A stretch of DNA of 52,436 nt from Bacteroidota bacterium (lineage in GTDB: Bacteria; Bacteroidota; Bacteroidia; J057; JAJTIE01), in contig JAHBTG010000013.1 in the NCBI GenBank assembly GCA_019638695.1, positions 1-52,436 on the forward strand, read 5' to 3'. Of the stretch, positions 17,955 to 19,682 are shown piece after piece. The notes below the pieces were generated by a model. The model made no database searches, was not told the origin of the DNA, and worked only from the letters and a program-made list of their open reading frames with translations. The first letter of the stretch is position 1. Each line of letters begins with the position of its first letter. The position numbers and the translations under genes are program-made.

Positions 17955-18047
17955 TTAAAGATATGTGCAGATGTCAGCACATGGCTATATAATTTGTCAT
18001 TTATATATGATTTGTAGAAAAATAATATATAAAAAATAAAGGAATGC

Positions 18048-18078
18048 TTGCACGGATGAAAAATGCGCATTTAATTTG
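18048..18078 (+). promoter_or_regulatory. Possible promoter of the tRNA-like gene
   Basis: TTG at 18048-18050, 21 bases and TAATTTG at 18072-18078. The -7 box is one base short of TAnnTTTG, so this is a variant. A transcript from here would start near 18083 and begin with a 5-bp hairpin (ACCAG at 18083-18087, CTGGT at 18096-18100) before the tRNA-like structure. Confidence 0.35.
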
Positions 18079-18105
18079 TGTCACCAGATTCTTACCTGGT
18101 TTTCT

Positions 18106-18221
18106 TGCAGGGTGGCGAAAGTTGGCAGACGCGCCCGCTCGTCTAGCGGGTGGGGAGTGTGCGGCAGTATGGGAATACAGAAGCAGGCTACCTGTTGGAG
18201 GTTCGAATCCTCCCCCTGCAG
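18106..18221 (+). tRNA. Class-II tRNA-like gene with unresolved anticodon and oversized variable region
   Basis: A perfect 7-bp acceptor stem (TGCAGGG 18106-18112 with CCCTGCA 18214-18220), U8, a leucine/serine-style D arm (GGCGAAAGTTGGCAGACGC) and a perfect 5-bp T arm with loop TTCGAAT (18197-18213) leave no doubt that the ends are tRNA-shaped. Position 73 is G and CCA is not encoded. The anticodon arm is odd: the best stem CCCGC/GCGGG (18134-18138/18146-18150) gives the loop TCGTCTA, which would mean anticodon GUC with C33 and U37, both very unusual. Between this stem and the T arm are 46 bases with two further hairpins (GTAT-GGGA-ATAC at 18167-18178, and GCAGG-CTA-CCTGT at 18183-18195), more than twice a normal class-II variable arm. 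It may be a damaged leucine/serine tRNA, one with an insertion, or a non-decoding tRNA. Confidence 0.55.
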
Positions 18222-18323
18222 CATCTCTTTTTTGGGAGATAATAGCGGAAGTGGGCAGTTCTATGAAAGTAGGGCTGCCTTTTTTGTCTTTACGGCGCCT
18301 GGATAATGGTGTATTTTGCAGCT

Positions 18324-19682
18324 ATGTCTAAAAAAGTGCGCACCGCTTATGTATGCAACGCCTGCGGGCAGGACCACGCCAAGTGGCAGGGCCAGTGCAG
18401 CAGTTGCGGGGAATGGAATACCCTGAGCGAGGTGCGGCTCGAAAGCAATTCTGTGGCTGCCAGCCGAAGCCTGCCGGGCACCCAGCAGGCAACCCCCCAG
18501 TTGCTCAGCAGCCTGGAAGGGCAGGAAGTCTCTCGCCTGCGGCTTCCCGGCAAAGAATTGAACCGGGTGTTGGGAGGGGGCATTCCTGCCGGTGCCTTGG
18601 TGCTGATAGGAGGAGAGCCCGGCATAGGAAAAAGTACCTTATTGCTGCAAACCGCCCTGCGCATGCTGGGTAGCCGGGTGCTATACGTTTCCGGCGAAGA
18701 AAGCAGCCAGCAGGTAAAACTGCGGGCAGACCGCCTGCCAGGAGACAACCCGGACCTATATCTTCTCCCTGAAACAGATGTGGAAGCCATTTTGACCGCC
18801 TGCCAGCAGTTACACCCTGCATTGGTCATTGTAGACTCCATCCAGACACTCTACAGCGGAGCGCTGGAGAGTGCTCCGGGCACCGTGGGACAGGTGCGGG
18901 AGTGTGCCACCCGCTTGTTGCGTTATGCCAAGGAAACGGGGGTGCCTGTGCTGCTGGTGGGGCATATCACCAAAGAAGGGTCGCTGGCCGGCCCCAAGGT
19001 GCTGGAGCATATGGTGGATGCCGTCATCGAATTTGAAGGAGAGCGGCATTACCAGTACCGGGTCATTCGTTCCGTGAAGAACCGCTTTGGCCCCACGCCC
19101 GAACTGGGTTTTTATGAGATGCAGCATACCGGGCTCAAGGAAGTGGCCAACCCCTCGGCCTTGTTTCTCAGCAGCAGTGAATCTGCCGCCGCCGGCGTGG
19201 CGGTGGCGGCTACGCTGCAAGGCCAGCGCCCCCTTTTGGTAGAATGCCAGGCATTGGTGGCAGATGCCGCCTATGGCACTCCCCAGCGCAGTGCCAACGG
19301 CATAGATATGCGCCGTCTTTCCTTGCTGCTGGCCGTACTGGAGAAGAAATGCAACCTGCGCATGGGCAGTAAGGACGTGTTTGTGAACCTGGCCGGTGGA
19401 TTGCGGCTGGATGACCCCGGTATGGACCTGGCCATTGTGGCAGCGCTGCTCTCTGCCTATTTTGATACGCCATTGCCTCCTCACGCCCTTTTTGTGGCAG
19501 AACTGAGCCTCACCGGGGCATTGCGGTTGCCGGTCCGCCTGGAGCATCGCCTTACAGAGGGGCAGCGTATGGGATTTATCCGGGGTTTTGGTGCACAAGC
19601 CTCCGGGCAGGCCTTGCCGGAGGGTCTTACCTATCACGGACTGGCACATGTGGCCGAGTTATTGCCCACATTGTTTGGCTAA
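18324..19682 (+). CDS. radA: DNA repair protein RadA
   Basis: The 452-residue product helps process recombination intermediates as a RecA-related branch-migration ATPase. It has the N-terminal C4 zinc finger (C11-x2-C14...C25-x2-C28), Walker A GGEPGIGKST, Walker B-like ALVIVDSIQTLY, the RadA-specific KNRFGPT motif, and the C-terminal Lon-like domain (MRRLSLLLAVLEKKCNLRMG, DVFVNLAGGLRLDDPGMDLAI). The start at ATG 18324 fits; an upstream in-frame start at 18306 adds six residues before the usual SKKVRTAYVC beginning. TATTTTG at 18312-18318, a one-base-short -7 box, lies five bases before the ATG. Confidence 0.97.
   Translation: MSKKVRTAYVCNACGQDHAKWQGQCSSCGEWNTLSEVRLESNSVAASRSLPGTQQATPQLLSSLEGQEVSRLRLPGKELNRVLGGGIPAGALVLIGGEPGIGKSTLLLQTALRMLGSRVLYVSGEESSQQVKLRADRLPGDNPDLYLLPETDVEAILTACQQLHPALVIVDSIQTLYSGALESAPGTVGQVRECATRLLRYAKETGVPVLLVGHITKEGSLAGPKVLEHMVDAVIEFEGERHYQYRVIRSVKNRFGPTPELGFYEMQHTGLKEVANPSALFLSSSESAAAGVAVAATLQGQRPLLVECQALVADAAYGTPQRSANGIDMRRLSLLLAVLEKKCNLRMGSKDVFVNLAGGLRLDDPGMDLAIVAALLSAYFDTPLPPHALFVAELSLTGALRLPVRLEHRLTEGQRMGFIRGFGAQASGQALPEGLTYHGLAHVAELLPTLFG

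Follow-up and report, generated by a model that had tools for sequence, protein, structure and literature searches.

What is the oversized tRNA-like gene at positions 18106–18221 of the window, i.e. of the whole 52,436-nt stretch of Bacteroidota DNA that was analysed? The original prediction had described perfect acceptor, D and T arms, C33 and U37, 46 bases in place of the variable arm and a discriminator G, and had left the choice among a non-decoding tRNA, an allo-tRNA-like form, a tRNA with an insertion and a fossil. A direct reading of the sequence bears out the description: 18106–18221 is a complete class II tRNA cloverleaf with a 46-nt variable region and a terminator on its 3′ side.

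The cloverleaf in the window

The conserved element extends over 18105–18222, and all features given here lie on the plus strand. The acceptor 5′ strand UGCAGGG (18106–18112), in which U1 pairs with A72 and G2 with C71, faces CCCUGCA (18214–18220), followed by G73 (18221) and an encoded C74 (18222). Position −1 (18105), a U that is C in 72 of 103 relatives, could pair with G73, as it frequently does across the family. U8 and G9 lead into a tRNA-Leu-like D arm with a 3-bp stem, GCG-AAAGUUGGCAGA-CGC (18115–18132), in which G10 is present. The anticodon arm CCCGC-UCGUCUA-GCGGG (18134–18150) places G34, U35 and C36 at 18141–18143 and has C33, U37 and A38, the usual base at the last position being C38. 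The variable region (18151–18196) is followed by the T arm GGAGG-UUCGAAU-CCUCC (18197–18213). Acceptor, D, anticodon and T stems are all fully paired, and the predicted fold has an MFE of −51.7 kcal/mol (z = −2.98), with none of 200 shuffled sequences equally stable. The window copy diverges from its family at three places: its anticodon loop has C33 and A38, and in the variable arm the 3′ half of the basal helix is unrecognisable when set against relatives. An ORF at 18044–18331 overlaps the gene, an open frame without support.

The possible promoter of the original prediction has a weak counterpart in the window, a tentative Bacteroidota −7 element, TTAATTTG, at 18071–18078 that agrees with TAnnTTTG in 7 of 8 positions. 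Across the family the signal is clearer, as TAnnTTTG occurs within 150 nt upstream in 71/103 relatives against 11 expected. On the other side, a good intrinsic terminator (GGGCAG...CUGCC followed by UUUUUU, 18253–18285) marks the end of the transcription unit, and strong terminators also follow many relatives. A GTTCTT motif resembling the boxA of rRNA operons lies at most 70 nt upstream in 37/103 members, with about 2 expected (L118–L196).

Standard annotation passes over this gene. ARAGORN makes no call at 18106–18221 and Rfam gathering thresholds give nothing there, both reporting in the window only a tRNA-Phe and a tRNA-Arg that lie elsewhere. At E ≤ 10 Rfam returns sub-threshold chance matches only, including a chance alignment to the tRNA-Sec model at 13.7 bits where 47 are needed; the anticodon is GUC instead of the UCA of tRNA-Sec, which is defined by an 8/5 branch. 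No Rfam 15 entry matches the family above threshold, and ARAGORN in standard mode detects a single one of 103 members, labelled as tRNA-Pro. The literature searched, open-licence papers only and hence no proof of novelty, held no earlier description, and the RNA family appears to be undescribed so far. It is thus a widespread family that standard annotation has overlooked.

A widespread family under selection

Searched at the nucleotide level, 60 related genomes yielded full-length homologues at ~70% identity, with three tandem copies in one genome. A covariance model built from 16 of these full-length homologues uncovered a widespread family where the Rfam models had no match. With this model every true member reaches 75 bits or more, well clear of the next-best matches, which stop at 64 bits and resemble, by appearance, ordinary tRNAs of Leu length. 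The model finds members in 12/22 genomes of the order and 67/395 genomes of the class (46/197 genera), and members also occur in a second class. A pattern scan adds named genomes of Chitinophaga, Niabella, Flavihumibacter, Pedobacter, Algoriphagus, Cyclobacterium, Echinicola, Pontibacter and Hymenobacter, together with Marivirga, Fulvivirga, Neolewinella, Saprospiraceae and one Ignavibacteriales assembly. The number of copies per locus varies from one to three, and tandem arrangements are frequent.

Phage and plasmid records gave no family match; a viral collection gave three contigs with matches. One of them, a provirus contig (L319:1-1434, IMGVR_UViG_3300013104_000042), starts with the 3′ 57 nt of the RNA gene and has a tyrosine-recombinase-like integrase ORF 180 bp further on. 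Like tRNA genes, the RNA gene probably serves phages as an attachment site.

To the question of selection, the alignment of 100 distinct sequences gives a direct answer. Paired cells make up 98.5% of the total, and 261 both-sided compensatory changes were counted against 66 expected by shuffling. Such changes fall in 16 of 25 pairs, covariation is 0.382 versus 0.185 in shuffled alignments, and none of the slid controls comes near the observed signal. The D stem alone appears as AUG/CAU, UUG/CAA, ACG/CGU, GUG/CAC and GCG/CGC among members. The family cloverleaf is therefore under selection, and the idea of a non-decoding tRNA maintained by selection gains support both from these changes and from the homologues in many genera.

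The long arm is part of what is conserved. The variable region ranges from 32 to 130 nt and in relatives comprises a basal GRGG/CCYC stem, an internal loop, GAYAAAC/GCUAAC, that most members share, and an apical hairpin. The decamer GGRUUGACCA occurs in the apical part of 82/216 unique members (e.g. L134:4386-4536 and L146:4331-4479) and is not present in the window copy. The D arm, U44 and the GU joint that follows the variable stem are tRNA-Leu-like.

The original prediction had looked to radA or an M49 gene as the partner, a setting found in the window genome only; the partner of the family is an AsnC-type regulator gene. It lies upstream of the RNA and divergent from it, never on the same strand, in 51/79 loci of one set and 63/97 of a second, at a distance of about 150 bp and typically within 120–190 bp. 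Loci without an adjacent asnC (28/79 and 34/97) include some cut at contig ends, and the window, the single representative of its genus in the comparison set, is also without one; its genome encodes an AsnC-type protein (53% identity) on another contig with no RNA beside the gene. Eleven neighbour proteins score 156–188 bits with the AsnC profile and 43–66 bits with the Lrp profile. We call them AsnC-type because AsnC is by far the best profile, with a gap of about 100 bits or more, yet the NCBIfam AsnC equivalog cut-off of 227 bits is not reached. In E. coli, the gene of the AsnC regulator is divergent from asnA, the asparagine synthetase A gene. The arrangement is the same in the family, but the divergent gene is an RNA gene instead of asnA. 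In three genomes of one family (L119, L121 and L123), a second divergent copy is located near a same-strand ion-channel-like gene instead of asnC.

Identity elements and co-occurrence with GatCAB

Bacterial aspartate identity rests on G73, G10, G34, U35, C36 and C38; an Asp-tRNA becomes a substrate for amidation through U1-A72, and G1-C72 and U20a act as antideterminants (PMC9976931; see also PMC4206432). In bacterial tRNAAsp, G1-C72 is strict (PMC9976931). We compared the family with these determinants in two partly overlapping member sets, whose identity counts are somewhat inflated, as the covariance model favours consensus-like sequences. Among 103 members, U1:A72, G2:C71 and C74 occur in all 103, G73 in 102, G34 in 99, U35 and C36 in 102 each and C38 in 100, giving a GUC anticodon in 98. 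Among 125 unique members, U1:A72 occurs in 124, G2:C71 and G73 in 125, U35, C36 and C38 in 125 each and G34 in 116. The family thus keeps the AspRS set G34, U35, C36, C38 and G73, plus G2:C71, minus the minor determinant G10 (position 10 is usually A10), and has the GatCAB pair U1-A72 in place of the G1-C72 of tRNAAsp. The D loop is mostly GG-C-A-G, and position 20a reads A, the loop numbering being by analogy only. Features of codon reading fare differently. U33 is found in only 78/103 and 106/125 members, position 37 is mostly U (a purine in only 2/125), and in several clades U33 has changed to G, A or C with G34, U35, C36 and C38 unchanged. Because the AspRS set and U1-A72 are kept while U33 and purine 37 are lost or absent, the RNA looks built for charging and amidation, not for codon reading.

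This reading of U1:A72 predicts dependence on GatCAB, whose presence was scored by gatB. All 47 RNA-bearing genomes carry gatB, against 17/33 without the RNA; class-wide the counts are 66/67 and 229/328 (p = 1.7e-8). AsnRS is encoded in 80/80 tested genomes and GlnRS, too, in 46. Since both synthetases are present in these 46, GatCAB is formally redundant there, and gatB is nevertheless found in 28/28 RNA-bearing genomes versus 2/18 of the others (p = 1.5e-10). Both p-values assume independent genomes and are thus optimistic; the better argument is that the contrast recurs inside three families (f4, f42 and f47). Genomes lacking GlnRS all have gatB with or without the RNA, as expected. The exceptions to the pattern are G017, G031 and G243. 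G017 has the RNA with no gatB detected in a fragmentary assembly (390 contigs, 93% complete). In G031, which lacks the RNA and has both GlnRS and AsnRS, the gatB match (G031:C19:17848-19227) lies in an unusually long frame of 1120 aa, a possible fusion.

AsnB-like or AsnA genes are present in 41/47 RNA-bearing genomes, so the RNA would rarely be the sole source of asparagine. Both are missing from six genomes with the RNA and two without, and their presence does not separate the groups. Replacement of asparagine synthetase was rejected as the whole story, as AsnB-like genes are common in genomes with and without the RNA.

Candidate roles of the RNA

Taken together, we propose a stand-alone, non-decoding acceptor RNA of Bacteroidota that would be charged with aspartate by AspRS, amidated to asparagine by GatCAB and placed under AsnC-type control, a reading that we hold at about even confidence. 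The promoter consensus and the terminators suggest transcription as a unit of its own, and the transcript would mature as tRNAs do, with CCA added to its 3′ end. AspRS may then load it with aspartate, and GatCAB, recognising U1:A72, may turn the RNA-bound Asp into Asn, with the AsnC-type protein adjusting the RNA supply to asparagine. The product is predicted to stay outside ordinary decoding, since neither the loop nor so large a variable arm is suited to it, and an Asn-carrying RNA with a GUC anticodon would put the wrong residue at Asp codons; the family RNAs probably do not read codons. The RNA could thus serve to make or sense asparagine, as an acceptor that takes no part in decoding. The Asn might be released, be transferred to another acceptor or act as a signal.

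The same Asp-type charging determinants, the same U1:A72 pair and, in nearly every RNA-bearing genome, the same gatB link the family to the indirect Asn/Gln pathway, in which AspRS or GluRS together with GatCAB act on tRNAAsn or tRNAGln. However, the substrates of that pathway are decoding tRNAs (GUU, UUG), whereas the family RNA has GUC, its U33 and purine 37 have been lost, and its variable region measures 32–130 nt. A bolder reading, to which we give less than an even chance, is a dedicated RNA cofactor for the synthesis of amino-acid amides, kept only for aspartylation and transamidation, never for decoding, and under AsnC-type control. This would be the reason why many Bacteroidota with both GlnRS and AsnRS retain GatCAB, and it offers a testable answer to the question why bacteria with these direct routes keep the enzyme. 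If charged and amidated, the RNA would be a tRNA relative wholly diverted to amino-acid metabolism or sensing.

The main rival, which we regard as unlikely, is that the RNA is a regulator and that its state of charging or amidation is itself the output, in place of the amino acid; it would be a sensor of asparagine or aspartate that acts through its variable arm, with AsnC-type feedback. The conserved GAYAAAC/GCUAAC and GGRUUGACCA motifs exceed what charging needs, and both the AsnC-type neighbour and the frequent presence of AsnB as well would suit a sensor. Against it, over half of the members, the window copy included, are missing GGRUUGACCA. Another rival, an improbable one, is that the RNA holds AspRS and/or GatCAB as a scaffold or sponge, in a transamidosome-like manner, with no need of charging. 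It would account for the same determinants and the same co-occurrence with GatB, but the invariant G73-C74 and the perfect acceptor stem suggest that the RNA receives CCA and is charged.

Highly improbable is a serine or leucine acceptor of the allo-tRNA type. The original prediction had called the gene serine/leucine-like, and part of this stands, as the D arm and the joint of the variable arm are tRNA-Leu-like, Leu tRNAs are apparently the next-best matches to the model, and the long arm with G73 would suit SerRS. The resemblance ends at G73 and the anticodon arm, which are those of an aspartate acceptor. Leucine requires A73 (PMC9976931), and of the serine determinants C72 is absent, A72 being invariant, and C11-G24 is usually absent, occurring in 17/103 members. 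The allo-tRNA form is also set aside, as the T stem has 5 bp in the consensus, not the 3 or 4 of a 12-bp acceptor branch (8/4 or 9/3). Allo-tRNAs, selC* tRNACys and tRNASec (PMC7609411) resemble the family in being tRNA-derived, in their enlarged variable arms and in escaping standard detectors; they differ in their 8/4, 9/3 or 8/5 branches, their anticodon logic and their phyla, the family having a 7/5 branch to which a −1:73 pair may be added. By model score, tRNA-Leu is apparently the closest of the ordinary tRNAs; it shares U44, the GU joint and both the loop and the 3-bp stem of the D arm, but lacks G73, U1:A72, the NNGUCNC loop and the long structured variable arm.

A true decoding isoacceptor for Asp codons is scarcely credible. 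The retained U33 of many members, the GUC anticodon, G73 and C38 (A38 in the window) would fit tRNAAsp, but its purine 37 is almost never seen, its G1-C72 and small variable loop are not found, U33 has been replaced in several clades that keep G34, U35, C36 and C38, and U1:A72 would expose the Asp-tRNA to amidation and hence mistranslation. Finally, a fossil and a single tRNA disrupted by an insertion have next to no chance; all that speaks for them is that the window copy has A38 and a degenerate variable stem. For the family they are ruled out by widespread homologues with compensatory changes, by terminators and a conserved loop, and by a long arm that is ancestral, structured and conserved.

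Three minor observations concern the anticodon loop. Pairing between it and the D loop (GUCU with AGAC) was considered and rejected as inconsistent, several members combining CAGCC with UUGUCUC. In a subgroup, C, A or U at position 34 yields Glu or Asp anticodons, as in the otherwise intact L145:4571-4687, L157:4431-4547 and L130:4149-4260, which have C or U (CUC and UUC, Glu anticodons); for this subgroup a Glu-to-Gln version of the same route is conceivable. The anticodon loop of L182:3856-4003 is apparently shortened (CCCTCTCGGGGG), possibly marking a decaying copy.
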